From the NCBI GenBank assembly GCA_020859995.1, contig JAJBVE010000180.1:1-37867 (forward strand): a stretch of 37,867 bases of DNA. Direction: 5' to 3'. Positions within the stretch are counted from its first letter, which is position 1. Each line of letters starts with the position of its first letter. The notes beneath the pieces were generated by a model that was not told the origin of the DNA, made no database searches, and saw only the letters and a program-made list of their open reading frames with translations. This document shows, piece by piece, positions 2,586 to 6,948 of this stretch. The DNA comes from Clostridiales bacterium. GTDB taxonomy: Bacteria > Bacillota > Clostridia > Lachnospirales > Lachnospiraceae. Both the position numbers and the translations under genes were made by a program.

Positions 2586-2675
2586 CCAGCATACCTTCTG
2601 CACTGAAGATTTGATAAAAAAACATCCACATAGAATCATAAGAACCATCAAATGCTTTTCCAGTGTATTATGTAG

Positions 2676-2746
2676 CGCTCCGAACAGGAATCGAACCTGT
2701 ATCTCCGGTTCGTAGCCGGATATTCTTTCCTTTAGACTATCGGAGC
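2676..2746 (-). tRNA. tRNA-Arg (anticodon ACG), atypical
   Basis: On the minus strand the acceptor GCTCCGA pairs with TCGGAGC, the anticodon stem TCCGG/CCGGA encloses the loop CTACGAA (anticodon ACG), and the T arm is ACAGG-TTCGATT-CCTGT. The D arm is weak and the variable loop is only about 3 nt, so this is a divergent tRNA of about 71 nt. No CCA is encoded. It is the last gene of the minus-strand tRNA array and lies only 2 nt from tRNA-Tyr. Confidence 0.8.
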
Positions 2747-2748
2747 AA

Positions 2749-2830
2749 TGGGCAGGGGAGGACTCGAACCTCCGATGTTTCATTGTGGCTGATTTACAGT
2801 CAGCTGCCTTCGCCGCTAGGCTACCTGCCC
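2749..2830 (-). tRNA. tRNA-Tyr (anticodon GTA)
   Basis: The acceptor GGGCAGG pairs with CCTGCCC. The anticodon stem GCTGA/TCAGC encloses CTGTAAA (anticodon GTA). A long variable region of about 14 nt fits the class II form expected of bacterial tRNA-Tyr. The T arm is GGAGG-TTCGAGT-CCTCC. No CCA is encoded. Spacing is 5 nt to the His gene and 2 nt to the Arg gene. Confidence 0.92.
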
Positions 2831-2835
2831 ATATC

Positions 2836-2958
2836 GGTGACCGGCGGGATTCGTCTACGCTTCGCTCCGGTCGTGCTAAACGGACATCCACTGGATGTCC
2901 AGCGCCCCGCAACCAATGGTGCCACAAACCACCGCTCTACCATTTGAGCTACGACCAC
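2836..2958 (-). tRNA. tRNA-His (GTG) interrupted in the T loop by a 52-nt element
   Basis: The minus strand reads a complete tRNA-His body: acceptor GTGGTCG pairing with CGGTCAC (two G-U pairs), D arm GCTC...GAGC, anticodon arm GTGGT-TTGTGGC-ACCAT (anticodon GTG), and T stem GCGGG/CCCGC. Between T-stem base 53 (at 2906) and loop base 56 (at 2853), the expected TT is replaced by 52 nt (2854-2905). That insert is a structured repeat described separately. The base before G1 is T rather than the G usual for tRNA-His. The gene is probably inactive unless the insert is tolerated or removed, and it should be treated as an interrupted tRNA or tRNA pseudogene. Confidence 0.8.
2854..2905 (-). repeat. 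Structured palindromic insertion element, copy 1 (in tRNA-His)
   Basis: Reading the minus strand: GCGCT (outer stem), GGACATCC-AGT-GGATGTCC (8-bp inner hairpin with AGT loop), GTTT, AGCAC (outer stem partner), then the tail GACCGGAGCGAAGCG and TAGA. The same arrangement occurs in copy 2 with different stem sequences but the same loop, GTTT linker and tail. This shows conserved structure with compensatory change. I do not recognise it as a named element. Confidence 0.75.
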
Positions 2959-2960
2959 AG

Positions 2961-3082
2961 TGACCCCAGTGAGACTTGAACTCAACATCTCCGCCTTGAG
3001 AGGTTGCCAGGTGCCAGTGGCACCTGTTTGGCAACGACCGAAGCGAAGCGGAGAGGTGTCCTAACCATTAGACTATGGAGCC
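2961..3082 (-). tRNA. tRNA-Glu-like (CTC) interrupted in the anticodon arm
   Basis: The minus strand has acceptor GGCTCCA pairing with TGGGGTC, D arm GTCT-AATGGTTA-GGAC, anticodon loop CTCTCAA (anticodon CTC), 3' stem GGCGG, variable loop AGATG, and T arm TTGAG-TTCAAGT-CTCAC. Between anticodon-stem base 31 and loop base 32 lie about 48-49 extra nt. Even with the insert removed, the 5' stem CCTCT pairs poorly with GGCGG (one mismatch, one G-U), and the T stem has a mismatch, so this is most likely a decaying tRNA-Glu copy. An intact tRNA-Glu(TTC) lies 5 nt away. Confidence 0.7.
3003..3050 (+). repeat. Structured palindromic insertion element, copy 2 (in tRNA-Glu)
   Basis: Reading the plus strand: GTTGCC (outer stem), AGGTGCC-AGT-GGCACCT (7-bp inner hairpin), GTTT, GGCAAC (outer stem partner), then the tail GACCGAAGCGAAGCG. 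The tail matches copy 1 at 14 of 15 positions, while the stems differ but still pair. The heptamer GAGAGGT occurs on both sides (2998-3004 and 3051-3057), which could be a target duplication. The orientation relative to the host tRNA is opposite to that of copy 1. Confidence 0.75.
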
Positions 3083-3087
3083 CTAAA

Positions 3088-3160
3088 CAACCCCGGCGGG
3101 ACTTGAACCCGGCATTACTGCCTTGAAAGGGCAGTGTCCTGACCATTAGACCACGGAGTC
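3088..3160 (-). tRNA. tRNA-Glu (anticodon TTC)
   Basis: The minus strand has acceptor GACTCCG pairing with CGGGGTT (two wobbles), D arm GTCT-AATGGTCA-GGAC, anticodon arm CTGCC-CTTTCAA-GGCAG (anticodon TTC), variable loop TAATG, and T arm CCGGG-TTCAAGT-CCCGC. It is 73 nt long with discriminator G and no encoded CCA. It lies between the XRE gene and the interrupted tRNA-Glu. Confidence 0.9.
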
Positions 3161-3165
3161 TTATG

Positions 3166-3193
3166 CAGAGCGAATCATCTTCGCTCTGTTTTT
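3166..3193 (+). terminator. Hairpin between the XRE gene and the tRNA array
   Basis: CAGAGCGAA (3166-3174) and TTCGCTCTG (3180-3188) form a perfect 9-bp stem with a TCATC loop, followed on the plus strand by TTTTT. As written it would terminate plus-strand transcription. For the minus-strand operon it lacks a U-run and could instead be a processing or spacer hairpin between the mRNA and tRNA parts. Confidence 0.5.
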
Positions 3194-3446
3194 ATGCGCT
3201 GGCGATCATGCTGTCTTCGTCAGCAATAACCAGAATATCATCTACCTTTACGCCAAACAGCGCGGCCAATACGACCATATTGTCAATTGTCGGCAGGGAG
3301 ACTCCCTGCCGACAATTGTATAATGCCTGTGGTGTTGAGAAGCCAAAGATGCCTTGTAAATCCTTAACACTCAAACCCGCCTGTATTCTTAAGTTTCTGA
3401 TATTCTGACCCGTCTTAGCCATATCTATGGCAGGGATTGTAAACAT
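3192..3446 (-). CDS. Small XRE-family (HTH) regulator in the rtcB/tRNA cassette
   Basis: A protein of about 84 residues with a helix-turn-helix of the XRE/Cro type (TGQNIRNLRIQAGLSVKDLQ, then a recognition helix near TPQALYNCRQG, and PTIDNMVVLAALFGVKVDDI). I place the start at 3446 because AGGAGG sits 8 bases upstream of that ATG; an upstream in-frame ATG at 3470 lies before the ribosome site. It is 53 bases downstream of rtcB and about 30 bases before tRNA-Glu, all on the minus strand, so it probably controls or is carried with this cassette. The acidic tail (ADEDSM) is not part of the DNA-binding domain. Confidence 0.8.
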   Translation of the reverse strand: MFTIPAIDMAKTGQNIRNLRIQAGLSVKDLQGIFGFSTPQALYNCRQGVSLPTIDNMVVLAALFGVKVDDILVIADEDSMIASA

Positions 3447-3499
3447 CTCATTTTCCTCCTGTTCCGGCATCCGGCTGCCAGAACAGGTAACTCCTCTGG

Positions 3500-4696
3500 T
3501 CAGTCAGATGCCTTAAAATTGTATACCGGTTTCAATACATCAATCACATCCACCGATTCCCGAATCATATCAATGATGTCATCCAGAGATTTATATGCCA
3601 TTGGTGCTTCATCCAGCGTGGACTCGTTGACGGAAGTTGTATAAACGCCTTCCATCAAGCGGCGGTATTCTTCCATGGAAAGGTTCTCTTTTGCTTTCTT
3701 GCGCGACATCAAACGGCCTGCTCCGTGCGGTGCGGAATAATTCCACTCCGGATTCCCCTTTCCGGTCGCCAGAATGCTCCCGTCCCTCATATTAATCAGA
3801 ACCCGCTCACCCTCATGTGCCGCGATTGCTCCTTTTCGTAAGATCATCTCATCCGTATCAATATAATTGTGAATGGTATGAAATACGTCAAAGCCCTCCA
3901 TCCCTGTTCTCTCCAGAATGATCTCGGCCATCTTTTCACGATTCCTTCGCGCAAAGCGCTGACAGATCTCAACATCGTGGAGATAATCTTCAAAATAAGT
4001 CCCGTACAGCCAGCATAAATCATCCGGGACAGCCAACTCTTTCTGTTTCCATGAAATTGCTTTCAGCGCCGCCTGTATCTCTTTCTTCCTGCCGGCTTCC
4101 TTATAAGTTCGGATGATTTCATCCCGTTTCCGAAAGTATTCTTCCTTCCCTTTTTGCAAGTCCCCTGCCAGCTGCTGATAGGTTTCAGCGACTTATTTGC
4201 CAAGGTTTCTGCTGCCGGAATGGATTACCAGATAATTGGTTCCATCCTGTGCCTGATCCACTTCAATGAAATGATTGCCGCCGCCCAGCGTTCCAAGACT
4301 TCTCTCCAGACGTTTCGTGTCTTTCAGGCTTCGGTAACAGCACAGTTCAGTAAGGTCAAAGCGTTCCTGCCGCCCTTCCCGCACTTTCATTCCCGACGGA
4401 ATGTAATGTGCCGCTGCATCCAGGTTTTCAAAGTCAATCGCCCGCTTTCCAAGATTTACAGTAAACATACCGCATCCAATATCCACTCCAACAATATTCG
4501 GAACCGCCTTATCTACAACTGTCATTGTCGTTCCAATCGTACAGCCTTTTCCTGCATGGACATCCGGCATAATACGAATCCGGCTGTCTCTGGTAAATTC
4601 CTGATCGCACATCCTGCGAATCTGTTCGATCGCTTCCTCCTCAATAATATTCGCATAGGCTATCGCCGTGTTTATTTTTCCTTTGATTTCCAACAT
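3500..4696 (-). pseudogene. rtcB: RtcB RNA-splicing ligase, interrupted by one in-frame TAA
   Basis: RtcB joins RNA ends (2',3'-cyclic phosphate or 3'-phosphate to 5'-OH) using GTP and Mn2+ and repairs cleaved tRNAs. The 398-codon frame shows its hallmarks: PDVHAGKG (about 44-51), VDIGCGM with the metal-binding Asp and Cys (about 71-77), GGGNHF (138-143), HSGSR (159-163), and the guanylylated His in APHGAGR (about 324). Codon 168, at 4193-4195, is TAA and lies within what I remember as LGK-Q-VAE in relatives, so CAA to TAA is the likely change. Both halves are otherwise intact and in the same frame. The start at 4696 follows GGAGGGAG. It sits 37 bases downstream of tRNA-Lys and is followed by the XRE gene and five tRNAs. 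It is a fresh pseudogene, a read-through gene, or a sequencing error. Confidence 0.85.
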
Positions 4697-4733
4697 AATC
4701 TGCTTCTCCCTCCATAATCTTGATGCTGCTGGA

Positions 4734-4805
4734 TACCTCATATGGGATTCGAACCCATGGCTCCCCGGTTAAAAGCCGGGTGTTCTTCCGCTGAGCTAAT
4801 GAGGT
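4734..4805 (-). tRNA. tRNA-Lys (anticodon TTT), leader of the rtcB unit
   Basis: The minus strand has acceptor ACCTCAT pairing with ATGAGGT, anticodon arm CCCGG-CTTTTAA-CCGGG (anticodon TTT), variable loop GAGCC, and T arm ATGGG-TTCGAAT-CCCAT. Length is 72 nt with no CCA encoded. A1-U72 is unusual for a bacterial tRNA and the D stem (GCTC/GAAC) has a mismatch, so it is divergent. It starts only a few bases after a terminator U-run and ends 37 bases before rtcB, so it lies within the rtcB transcript leader. Confidence 0.85.
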
Positions 4806-4810
4806 GTTTT

Positions 4811-4850
4811 TTGTAAAAAGAAAACCGCCTATCCCATACAAGATAAGCGG
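4811..4850 (-). terminator. Intrinsic terminator just upstream of tRNA-Lys
   Basis: On the minus strand CCGCTTATC pairs with GATAGGCGG (9 bp, one G-U) and is followed by TTTTCTTTTT. It would end transcripts from the upstream minus-strand genes (the WYL-led unit). Only a few bases separate the U-run from tRNA-Lys, leaving little room for a separate promoter, so the cassette may depend on read-through. Confidence 0.75.
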
Positions 4851-4900
4851 CTCTGATGAAATATCATGTCTGATTCTCCTGCCATACTCTCTGAAAGCAG

Positions 4901-5029
4901 TTATATCTCAACACATTTCAGTCGGCTTTTTCTTACCCTATATGGACACACCAAATCAAAGCACTGTTTTTTCTCAAGTGCCTGCTCATGTCGTTCTTCA
5001 ACAAGGTAATAGAAAAAGCTGAAAGTCAT
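4901..5029 (-). CDS. Possible small protein (42 codons)
   Basis: An ATG at 5029 opens a short frame beginning MTFSFFYYLVEERHEQALEK and ending CVEI, with AAAGGATAAGGA upstream. The composition looks coding (charged helix, Cys near the end) and it lies between the Sel1-repeat gene and the terminator on the same strand. An overlapping frame upstream (5034-5216) ends 4 bases before this ATG, so coupling is possible. I do not recognise the product and would treat it as tentative. Confidence 0.4.
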   Translation of the reverse strand: MTFSFFYYLVEERHEQALEKKQCFDLVCPYRVRKSRLKCVEI

Positions 5030-5204
5030 GTCCTTATCCTTTCCGGGCTGTAAAGTCCTGTTTTGTATTGTACGCTGATCTTTTCTTTTCGTACTCTGAT
5101 TGATACGCGTTATAACGCAGAATTTCAAGATTGTCATTATACTTGTAGTATAAATTTTTCTTTCTATAAGCCCTATAACCCCTGGAGCTAATACCGATTA
5201 TGTA

Positions 5205-5276
5205 CATCCTCAGCAAAGCACATAAAGTCTTTAATCTTCAGGATTCTTCCGTCATCCAATACTGCAGTTCTTCATT
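5205..5276 (-). pseudogene. Possible frameshifted small-gene remnant after the Sel1 gene
   Basis: An ATG overlapping the stop of the preceding gene reads MNEELQYWMTEES and then stops. A neighbouring frame continues with DDGRILKIKDFMCFAEDV and stops at about 5205. Joined, these resemble a small phage-like protein that begins with an x-YW-x-T-x-DG-x-I pattern, so an indel in a short gene is likely. This rests on pattern memory and the evidence is thin. Confidence 0.3.
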
Positions 5277-6948
5277 CATCAACCTCATACACATAATACA
5301 ACGCACCGATATAGGCCACCAGTTCATCATCGCGGTAAAATTCATATCTGTCTTTATCACTGCGCCAGACCCAGTTCATGATATTCGCCTTAAAGCTGTC
5401 CGCATCACCGGCGACCCAGAATTCTCTTATATCCCGCACCCGGTAGGTCACCTGATCCACAAGCCTGCAGATTCCATATTCCGGCAGAACCACCAGAAGC
5501 TTTTTGCCGCCGGCGCGGTCTTCTGGAGGCACACTGGTTTCAGCAACATGATCCTGAATTCCCGGAATCTCAATTCTCTTCCCTGTAATTTCAATATAAT
5601 TCTCCGTCTTCCTGACCGTAAACAACGATGTTCTGCGGTTTTCCAGCAAATCATTAAACAGGTCTGGAAATGTATTGCACTGCATCATCAGCTGCGGATT
5701 TGAATCTTCACAGATTGGCCTGAGCCTTTCTACAGCTTCATGAATTCTTCCTGCCACCGACTCGTCCCCATAAAATTTGTTCTGTTTCCTGCGAAGCTCA
5801 ATCGCCAGCTGCGCCTCGAGATAATACTTATACGCATGGATGAGATTCACGGAACCCTCTGAGCCAAAAGAATCCGGATCAGCATCCTCCGGTTTTCTCC
5901 CGTACTGTTCACAGACTTTCCCCATGCGCAACGCAGCATCCGCGAACTCGCAGCTGTATTGTCCTGCCTGGAATAATTCTCTTGTTGTATCATAAACCTG
6001 TTCGATCAGGTTTCTGGCTATCGTCTCATTCTTTTCTGTCCCAAGGCCTCTGGAAAACATATCCGCCAGTTTGTAGACAGACTCATGGCAGCCGCTGGCC
6101 ATACCTATCGAAAAATAATAAAATGCCTTATCATACTGGGGAACGCCATCATTGCAGCGCCCATAAAAATAAATGTAGCCGAGGGAATTCGCGTAATTTC
6201 CTTTCTGAATCTCGTTTGAAAAAGGATCGTCCTTTTCCAGAAGATGAATCAGAAGATCATGCGAAGCTCTCCAGTCACAGGGATAAAGGCGATTCCCGCC
6301 ATAGCAGCTGTACGCCATGACTTTCATTGCATCCGGATATCCTTTTCCCATCAGACTTTCAATCGCATCCCTTACAAGGGCCAACTCCTCTTCCACCATC
6401 ATATCCAGCCCGCTGTAATCAAAGAACCGCAGATAATGCGCCTTTCCCTCATCTGTCCAGAAGAGCGGCCGAATCTCGCTGAACCTGCCCTCTTCCATCA
6501 GAGAAATGTCCTGCTCCAGGCATTCGAAATCGATAAAATCCCTGCAGCGGGCTTCCGGCTGAAATTCCTCCACCTCGCAGGTACTCATCTCAAGAGAAAA
6601 CGCCACAGTATACATCGCCTCTGCGGCATTCTCCGGCAGTTTCCTTCCATAAGGCCGCGTGAAATCTGCCTTGCCTGTCTCCTCATCATTAAGCAAAAAC
6701 AGGCTGCCCTGCTCCATCAGATCCGTAACAACCATGCTGCCCCACTTCTCATCAAAAGCAACCGGTGTGTCATTGCAGCTCCGCAGATTTTCCAGTAATT
6801 TCCGGATATCACTCCACTGAACATAATAAGGTTCGTATTCTATATGGCTTCCTGCATATTCCGCAGGAAGCAGCTCATCAAAAGACAGCTCATAGCGGAA
6901 AAAAGCTCCCATTCTGTCCGATTTCACAAGGTATTTTGTCTCGTTCAT
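5272..6948 (-). CDS. Sel1/TPR-repeat protein of unknown function (558 aa)
   Basis: The N-terminal half (1-200) is acidic and unfamiliar, with many aromatic residues. The middle (about 230-390) carries Sel1-like repeats: NSLGYIYFYGRCNDG with AFYYFSIGMASGCHESVYKL, ADMFSRGLGTEKNETIARNL and a third weaker unit. Sel1 repeats are protein-interaction scaffolds. The C terminus (about 440-558) contains a beta-rich segment. The start at 6948 follows AGAGGAGGAC. No signal peptide or membrane segment is seen, so it is cytoplasmic. It is near the end of the WYL-led unit. A second Sel1 protein occurs at 14037-14918. Confidence 0.65.
   Translation of the reverse strand: MNETKYLVKSDRMGAFFRYELSFDELLPAEYAGSHIEYEPYYVQWSDIRKLLENLRSCNDTPVAFDEKWGSMVVTDLMEQGSLFLLNDEETGKADFTRPYGRKLPENAAEAMYTVAFSLEMSTCEVEEFQPEARCRDFIDFECLEQDISLMEEGRFSEIRPLFWTDEGKAHYLRFFDYSGLDMMVEEELALVRDAIESLMGKGYPDAMKVMAYSCYGGNRLYPCDWRASHDLLIHLLEKDDPFSNEIQKGNYANSLGYIYFYGRCNDGVPQYDKAFYYFSIGMASGCHESVYKLADMFSRGLGTEKNETIARNLIEQVYDTTRELFQAGQYSCEFADAALRMGKVCEQYGRKPEDADPDSFGSEGSVNLIHAYKYYLEAQLAIELRRKQNKFYGDESVAGRIHEAVERLRPICEDSNPQLMMQCNTFPDLFNDLLENRRTSLFTVRKTENYIEITGKRIEIPGIQDHVAETSVPPEDRAGGKKLLVVLPEYGICRLVDQVTYRVRDIREFWVAGDADSFKANIMNWVWRSDKDRYEFYRDDELVAYIGALYYVYEVDE

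Follow-up and report, generated by a model that had tools for sequence, protein, structure and literature searches.

The stretch of DNA considered here (the window, 37,867 bases, the entire contig G000:C17 of a 239-contig draft genome from a Lachnospiraceae bacterium) carries a cassette of tRNA genes, rtcB, which encodes an RNA ligase, and a small gene for an XRE-type regulator. The cassette and its relatives very likely form stress operons that replace, and usually also repair, a chosen set of tRNAs and that sense those same tRNAs through a leader peptide. The parts of the operon and their conservation, the covarying pairing between terminator and antiterminator, and the positional match between leader codons and operon tRNAs are all apparent from the sequences compared. 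A preliminary description of this DNA had dealt with the tRNA genes, rtcB and the XRE gene, and left out the upstream control region (4821-5153) that holds the leader.

In the proposed mechanism, transcription would start at a promoter overlapping a palindromic operator, where the XRE protein is probably bound, and a ribosome would translate a leader of about 45 codons. With all sensed tRNAs plentiful, the ribosome would run on and cover the antiterminator, the terminator would fold and transcription would stop. With one sensed tRNA scarce, the ribosome would stall 5-24 codons before the antiterminator, which would then pair with the 5′ arm of the terminator and allow read-through into the tRNA or tRNAs, rtcB if present, the XRE gene and further tRNAs. 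Because the sensing codons are read by the operon's own tRNAs, the new tRNAs would end the stall and so turn the operon off, and RtcB could meanwhile reseal broken tRNAs. The cell would probably turn on the tRNA set just when it is short of those tRNAs. Translation of the leader, activation by stalling, binding of the XRE protein and tRNA cleavage as the natural trigger are inferences.

Control region upstream of the operon

Relatives of the window RtcB were collected in two samples: the best 80 of a longer list of loci, mostly from Lachnospiraceae, and a fresh sample of 50 loci (60 taken, 10 duplicates at 97% rtcB identity removed) that still includes close relatives of the first (L321 of L120, L302 of L086). 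A leader was called where an ATG-initiated open reading frame with a GGAAAGGA-type Shine-Dalgarno sequence lay upstream of the terminator signature, so that the Shine-Dalgarno sequence and terminator were themselves selection criteria; antiterminator pairing and codon match played no part in the selection. The leaders found have 33-56 codons and end 20-90 nucleotides (nt) before the terminator. Leader, Shine-Dalgarno sequence and terminator occur together in 34 of 37 loci with an XRE gene versus 5 of 43 without one in the first sample, and the same rules applied to the fresh loci gave a leader in 17/24 versus 3/26. At XRE loci the terminator hairpin is found repeatedly upstream of rtcB, with its sequence conserved.

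Over 60 leaders, the best duplex between the leader and the 5′ arm plus loop of its own terminator has a mean energy of -14.5 kcal/mol, compared with -11.0 for terminators swapped between loci (no permutation of 20,000 was as good, P = 5e-5) and -9.7 for shuffled leaders. The pairing strand, taken as the antiterminator, falls in most leaders at or close to codons for [C/R][S/P]Y[K/R], 10-22 codons ahead of the stop. When upstream RNA was masked and the RNA ended before the 3′ arm of the terminator, at least 6 antiterminator pairs were expected in 52 of 60 leaders; when the antiterminator was masked, a terminator of at least 8 pairs formed in all 60. The sequences hold a leader reading frame with a ribosome-binding site, a terminator, a mutually exclusive and covarying antiterminator, and control codons, which together characterize a ribosome-mediated attenuator. 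Rfam searches of 4690-5290 gave no T-box match at E values up to 5, and the matches to PyrG_leader (24.2 bits, gathering score 65) and trpB (21.5 bits, gathering score 59) in the leader were below threshold. A known riboswitch as control element was rejected, none being present in the window at Rfam gathering score.

Farther upstream lies the palindrome TTATACT-N3-AGTATAATGACA, whose best match is usually 75-125 nt upstream of the leader. Its score averages 16.4 of 19 over 60 leaders and reaches at least 15 in 44 of them, with shuffled sequences (one per locus) scoring no higher than 14; the consensus was drawn from some of the scored loci. Across 397 genomes of the family the pattern occurs 31 times and the reversed control never, and 29 of the 30 sites examined precede a leader or operon, L394 being the exception. 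Reading by eye, a -10-like box follows 17-18 nt after the operator in many loci. This arrangement suggests that the palindrome is probably the operator of the operon's own XRE protein, acting as an autorepressor. In the preliminary description the cassette was placed under an XRE switch, and both the XRE gene and a probable operator are indeed present; the switch is at most half of the control, as there is also a putative leader attenuator.

Leader codons and the tRNA genes of the operon

The window leader contains the stretch YYLVEERHEQALEKK, encoded by TAT TAC, GAA GAA, CGA, CAT, GAG, GAG and AAA AAA. These are codons for the operon's Tyr, Glu(TTC), Arg(ACG), His, Glu(CTC) and Lys tRNAs, that is, for all six, including two whose genes are interrupted; in the statistics the window was counted with its four ARAGORN tRNAs only. 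Tests of whether an isoacceptor has a cognate codon in its own leader left out Met and selenocysteine tRNAs, including in the first 30 of the 38 loci finally covered. With the whole leader, 88 of 93 isoacceptors were matched by a codon (permuted mean 78.6, P = 9e-4) in 22 of 27 tRNA-bearing loci, namely the window and 26 loci of the first sample, the remaining five (L087, L092, L111, L119, L135) having no leader by the rule; L300, L304 and L326 were left out of the fresh set on the same ground. When only the part upstream of the antiterminator was considered, the count was 113 of 119 in 30 loci (permuted mean 94.1, maximum 109 in 50,000; isoacceptor-stratified z 5.66), and same-length segments of each locus's own rtcB gave 78.5 +/- 4.9 (maximum 93 in 2,000). 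This figure is made up of 88/93 in the discovery loci and 25/26 in the fresh ones (permuted mean 21.5, P = 0.02; rtcB segments reach at most 25), and among leaders less than 50% identical it is 82/86 (permuted mean 68.4, maximum 79 in 20,000, P = 5e-5).

Eight extra loci, seven of them without rtcB at the locus, gave 24 of 24, where a random other leader gives 19.4 (P = 0.004); leaders and motif ends were picked by hand (L350, L356, L360, L370, L374, L398, L405, L408). L398, which is the same locus as L300, does have rtcB, and its downstream Glu tRNA was left uncounted; the leaders of L350, L356, L360 and L405 are similar; and L357, L381 and L399, which yielded no leader, were omitted together with L402 (the leader of L405, at a contig end). 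Over all 38 loci, 137 of 143 isoacceptors are matched by a codon in their own leader (permuted mean 111.7, maximum 129 in 50,000, z 6.6). Individual cases illustrate the match: a Trp codon is present in the leaders of 5/5 loci with a Trp tRNA versus 6/33 without, the operon tRNAs of L408 for Phe, Ile(TAT), Ser(TGA), Lys, Cys, Gln(CTG) and Gln(TTG) are matched by TTT, ATA, TCA, AAA, TGC, CAG and CAA in its leader, and the L075 leader has codons for 16 isoacceptors of its own operon, the highest count.

The match is also positional. Between 5 and 24 codons before the antiterminator, a fraction of 0.316 of codons is decoded by the locus's own cassette versus 0.222 by swapped cassettes (observed 238, permuted mean 169, maximum 206), and outside this stretch the fractions are 0.080 and 0.090. 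A ribosome stalled at codons 5-24 would free the antiterminator and one stalled 1-4 codons before it would cover it, which fits ribosome-mediated attenuation. A quick-method RtcB tree of the 30 rtcB-bearing loci (rtcB-less loci fall outside it) was used to draw independent pairs, with counts given as means over random pairings. For 26 isoacceptors pooled, codon and tRNA differ in the same direction in 14.7 pairs and oppositely in 3.4, with the codon unchanged in 36.9; for codons 5-24 and 28 isoacceptors the numbers are 17.3, 3.6 and 43.1 (no codon difference). Since the leader codons list the operon's own tRNAs, a feedback sensor of specific tRNA shortage is the most likely mechanism.

Several points weigh against this interpretation. 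The limits of codons 5-24 were fixed after the data had been seen, and the upstream-only test followed the whole-leader test. Six of the 143 isoacceptors lack a codon upstream of the antiterminator, and 12 of 143 lack one within the 20-codon stretch. The loci share ancestry, no single isoacceptor can reach significance in the tree test, and Arg(TCT), His and Ser(TGA) show differences in both directions on the tree (first count). Between related leaders (9 pairs), codon changes are weakly biased to position 3 (50/43/72), and 38 are synonymous versus 85 non-synonymous. Eight of 60 leaders (L076, L077, L100, L132, L319, L323, L337 and, by rounding, L344) have a predicted antiterminator with fewer than 6 expected pairs, and some extracted leaders look doubtful (L298, L319). 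The minimum-energy fold of the complete window leader keeps the terminator even without upstream RNA, and the switch must therefore be kinetic and co-transcriptional. A generic promoter scan of the window lists no promoter at the operator; promoter-like sites inside rtcB are at chance level (6 versus 3.7 +/- 2.3 in shuffles), and internal promoters there may exist. Finally, loci with leader and XRE gene have no ARAGORN tRNA in 14 of 34 cases in the first 80 and in 10 of 17 in the fresh set.

The presence of rtcB under a leader without detectable tRNAs at some loci would also be expected if the leader were a general attenuator responding to amino-acid starvation or ribosome stress, with the tRNAs boosting translation in general, in the manner of the Anabaena trn array, and the codon match being incidental tuning. 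The leaders are of mixed composition rather than runs of a single residue, and ribosome-targeting antibiotics are described as inducing the Anabaena trn array and rtcB (PMC10272220), both of which fit such a general response. A locus-by-locus match between codons and isoacceptors and its restriction to codons 5-24 would be unexpected on this basis, and a general attenuator is considered unlikely.

Gene linkage and tRNA sets across loci

The linkage of tRNA genes and rtcB, raised in the preliminary description for the window, recurs in relatives, mostly of Lachnospiraceae, concentrated within 1 kb and on the same strand. In the first sample, with each bin counted only where it is complete, ARAGORN found tRNAs at most 1 kb upstream of rtcB in 14 of 74 loci and at the same distance downstream in 18 of 73, compared with 0 to 3 loci in any of ten farther bins. 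Such near tRNAs occur at 27 of the 80 loci, and 78 of 79 are on the strand of rtcB. The gene immediately 3′ of rtcB is an XRE homologue in 36 of 77 loci complete at that side, and near tRNAs are found in 20 of these 36 versus 6 of the 41 others (Fisher P = 2e-4).

The ligase gene itself is optional at the locus. Leader, XRE gene and tRNAs occur without rtcB in the examined stretch at L350, L356, L360, L370, L374, L405 and L408. Five of the seven genomes concerned (G282, G112, G017, G113, G052) encode an RtcB related to that of the window elsewhere, and the ligase may act in trans in such cases; in G265 and G129 no RtcB of this kind was found at E 1e-100. At the same threshold or better, an RtcB of the window's kind is patchily distributed, present in 69 of 397 family genomes.

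The same RtcB family was also seen behind WYL-type gene pairs (L072 and 13 other loci, with near tRNAs in 1 or 2 of the 14) and behind a TROVE/Ro-like gene (L091 and 4 others, near tRNAs in 1/5). These names were assigned by reading the sequences, and the two settings are apparently other regulatory contexts of the ligase. At L076, L095 and L098 a second XRE homologue is located upstream of rtcB in addition to the downstream one. The genome of the window encodes a second RtcB, 42% identical to the first (L062 5234-6337, on G000:C123). Neither RtcA nor RtcR/CARF was recognized by eye among the recurrent neighbour clusters of the 80 loci, where no RtcA or RtcR model was searched.

Patchy distribution, encoded CCA in some large tRNA arrays (L075, L125, L142) and the carriage of rtcB by phages (632 records) are features that could also be expected of mobile-element or phage cargo, serving codon compensation or as an integration landmark and having no regulatory meaning. 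The same-strand operon layout, the conserved operator, leader and attenuator, and the codon match all speak against cargo of this sort. Among 80 viral rtcB loci, a tRNA is present within about 2-2.5 kb at only 10 and an XRE gene at only 3, and a phage origin of the cassette was rejected because these neighbours are so rarely seen there. Overall, the cargo explanation is very improbable.

Whether the cassette tRNAs are spare copies was examined genome-wide in one genome, that of Clostridium aminophilum KH1P1 (G001; 57 ARAGORN genes, 58 tRNA matches). Each of its cassette tRNAs for Arg(ACG), Glu(TTC), Glu(CTC), Tyr and Ser(GCT) has at least one housekeeping copy elsewhere, with 54-68% identity to the housekeeping tRNA of the same anticodon and 53-69% to any tRNA for the same amino acid, so that the earlier suggestion of spare, divergent copies is borne out in this genome. 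The 26 tRNA matches in the window's draft are too few to judge spare status, and Arg(ACG) and Glu(CTC) are also present elsewhere in it.

The tRNA sets are neither random nor complete. Isoacceptors for Lys, Glu, His, Tyr, Arg, Asn and Asp account for 87 of 143 in cassettes versus 12 of 35 housekeeping kinds in C. aminophilum (binomial P 8e-11, a value inflated by the shared ancestry of the loci), and those for Gly, Ala, Val, Pro and Thr for 6 of 143 versus 11 of 35. In the preliminary description the cassette had been seen as supplying a ligase and replacements for the favourite targets of anticodon nucleases, and the bias towards the five families named there, with Asn and Asp added, agrees with that idea, as do the RtcB at many loci, the divergent extra copies in C. 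aminophilum and a defence-gene region adjoining the window cassette. The sets vary too widely for a fixed list of PrrC, colicin and zymocin targets, with 33 distinct sets in 38 loci that also include Trp, Cys, Phe, Gln, Leu, Ser, Ile and Gly; some versions have no rtcB at the locus, and no anticodon nuclease was linked to any locus. The codon content of a leader predicts the tRNA set of its locus better than a fixed target list does. Such a list as the whole explanation was rejected on the grounds that sets vary and track the leader, and a fixed repair-and-replacement kit under an XRE switch is possible but somewhat unlikely. Upstream of rtcB at L100 lies a tRNA called as Leu(TAA), with a body like that of the cassette Lys tRNA and an anticodon loop that is altered and enlarged.

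The window copy and known systems

The features of the window cassette are listed in the table. ARAGORN, Rfam and profile searches agree with the gene order given in the preliminary description for Lys(TTT), rtcB, XRE, Glu(TTC), Tyr and Arg on the minus strand, and the last five tRNAs are indeed tightly spaced (1-5 nt); Glu(CTC) and His depart from that description in being interrupted, each of them. The gap of about 15 nt between terminator and tRNA-Lys leaves no room for a promoter between them.

Table. Parts of the cassette and its control region in the window (positions are those of the whole contig)
Feature	Position	Strand	Basis
Palindromic operator overlapping -35 box (TTATACT-N3-AGTATAATGACA)	5132..5153	-	19/19 consensus match
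Possible -10 box TATAAC	5109-5114	-	sequence
Shine-Dalgarno GGAAAGGA of leader peptide	5037..5044	-	sequence; same type at related loci
Leader peptide reading frame, 42 codons, MTFSFFYYLVEERHEQALEKKQCFDLVCPYRVRKSRLKCVEI	4901..5029	-	sequence; open reading frame script
Leader sensing stretch YYLVEERHEQALEKK	4967..5011	-	codons read from sequence; statistics over loci
Antiterminator strand within leader (VCPYRV codons)	4932..4947	-	pairs with terminator 5′ arm and loop, -16.0 kcal/mol
Intrinsic terminator/attenuator hairpin, 15 pairs and T-run	4821..4854	-	sequence conserved upstream of rtcB at related loci
tRNA-Lys(TTT), between terminator and rtcB	4734..4805	-	ARAGORN, Rfam
rtcB (RNA ligase), PF01139	3500..4696	-	start 4696 set by alignment to relatives
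rtcB in-frame stop	4193-4195	-	
Small XRE/HTH_3 regulator gene, 92 codons	3192..3470	-	PF01381, 25.1 bits, cut-off 23
tRNA-Glu(TTC)	3088..3160	-	ARAGORN, Rfam
tRNA-Glu(CTC), interrupted in anticodon stem	2960..3083	-	sequence reading; weaker covariance model match
Repeated hairpin element copy inside tRNA-Glu(CTC)	3002..3054	-	boundaries by eye
tRNA-His(GTG), interrupted in T loop	2836..2958	-	sequence reading; weaker covariance model match
Repeated hairpin element copy inside tRNA-His	2854..2906	+	opposite orientation to Glu(CTC) copy; boundaries by eye
tRNA-Tyr(GTA)	2748..2831	-	ARAGORN, Rfam
tRNA-Arg(ACG), final tRNA of the cluster	2675..2746	-	ARAGORN, Rfam

The window copy is probably decayed, or else the draft sequence is wrong there. 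Its rtcB has an in-frame stop and a two-residue deletion relative to three aligned relatives, and the Glu(CTC) and His tRNA genes, neither of which ARAGORN called in the window, are each split by roughly 53 nt of a single repeated hairpin element, whose two copies point in opposite directions. Relatives free of such damage exist. Recoding of the stop was checked against G055, G131 and G273 and is unsupported by them: the stop in G055 (L297) lies just before the start, and there is none in the aligned coding part of G131 (L294) or in G273 (L347); RtcB stops are also listed for G346, G250 and G261.

With up to 2 mismatches allowed, the 16-nt motif of the element was counted 59 times in the genome, versus 6 for a reversed control. 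That the interrupted tRNAs adjoin an RNA ligase gene, and that the same element family interrupts the upstream Lys tRNA of the C. aminophilum cassette and probably also the tRNA upstream of rtcB at L106, might suggest that the inserts are tRNA introns, excised and then resealed by RtcB. Insertion in both orientations, the many copies outside tRNA genes, borders of the His insert that leave no clean tRNA (read by eye), the broken rtcB of the window itself, and uninterrupted tRNAs at other cassette loci (interrupted ones were not searched for systematically) make tRNA introns extremely improbable. The multi-copy element (TCTMCGCTTCGCTYCGGTCG...CCACTGG...) sits in tRNA genes or their remnants in both orientations, with further sites at L262 (about 340-415), L047 (about 905-965) and upstream of rtcB at L106, and elsewhere within larger palindromes; it is perhaps a hairpin-targeting mobile repeat. 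A different insert of about 56 nt is found in the anticodon loop of a Gly(TCC)-like tRNA (L028 1501-1629, G000:C80:17987-18115), beside which lies a second, similar tRNA-like sequence.

The defence-gene region beside the cassette (12749-35470) encodes a WYL regulator, a GmrSD-like protein, a UvrD/GajB-like helicase, a DruE-like helicase of 2103 aa, a type IIG restriction enzyme and a SNF2-type helicase.

Ribosome-mediated attenuation is known from the trp, his, leu and pheST leaders, and known attenuators respond to the charging of one or a few tRNAs, with a synthetase or the synthesis of an amino acid under their control. The cassette leader shares with the trp/his type a leader peptide with a Shine-Dalgarno sequence, a terminator, a mutually exclusive antiterminator and codons for the sensed tRNA, but covers up to 16 isoacceptors and would control the genes for those tRNAs, often together with a ligase. 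T-boxes bind uncharged tRNA directly; like them, the cassette leader is an RNA from Firmicutes that would respond to the state of tRNAs by way of a terminator, whereas its probable sensor is a translated reading frame, and Rfam lists no T-box in the leader.

Closer in gene content is Anabaena, where 26 tRNAs form the trn array on a megaplasmid, rtcB is on the chromosome and the repressor TrcR is a ribbon-helix-helix protein (PMC10272220). As described there, a silent spare tRNA array and rtcB are co-regulated and induced by translational stress, as proposed for the cassette, but the main text of that report contains neither the term 'leader' nor 'attenuat' (PMC10272220). In Salmonella, the rsr-yrlBA-rtcBA operon is under RtcR, a sensor with a CARF domain that binds tRNA fragments, and RtcB is likewise made in response to tRNA damage; the passages describing this operon name neither tRNA genes nor a leader peptide, in contrast to the cassette (PMC7790460). 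Phage tRNAs have been proposed as a means of evading host tRNases, and so as spare tRNAs that counter tRNA depletion, but they are phage-encoded and are described in the passages concerned without a sensing leader or XRE protein (PMC10264068). In the literature searched, with subscription papers mostly outside its reach, no description of a leader-controlled tRNA/rtcB operon was found.

Attenuators are textbook sensors of one amino acid. The attenuator described here apparently senses many individual tRNAs and answers by making them, often with a ligase. The operon may, with the case for and against evenly balanced, be a self-tuning tRNA homeostat in which a tRNA gene and its leader codon are gained or lost together, providing inducible immunity to, or repair after, tRNA-cleaving enzymes of phages, of rivals or of the cell itself. 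The leader and tRNA pairs across loci offer a natural series for codon-resolved attenuation, and sequence alone could reveal which tRNAs a lineage tends to lose. More broadly, the operon suggests a possible function for cellular arrays of spare tRNAs and a testable model of how bacteria notice and survive the loss of specific tRNAs.

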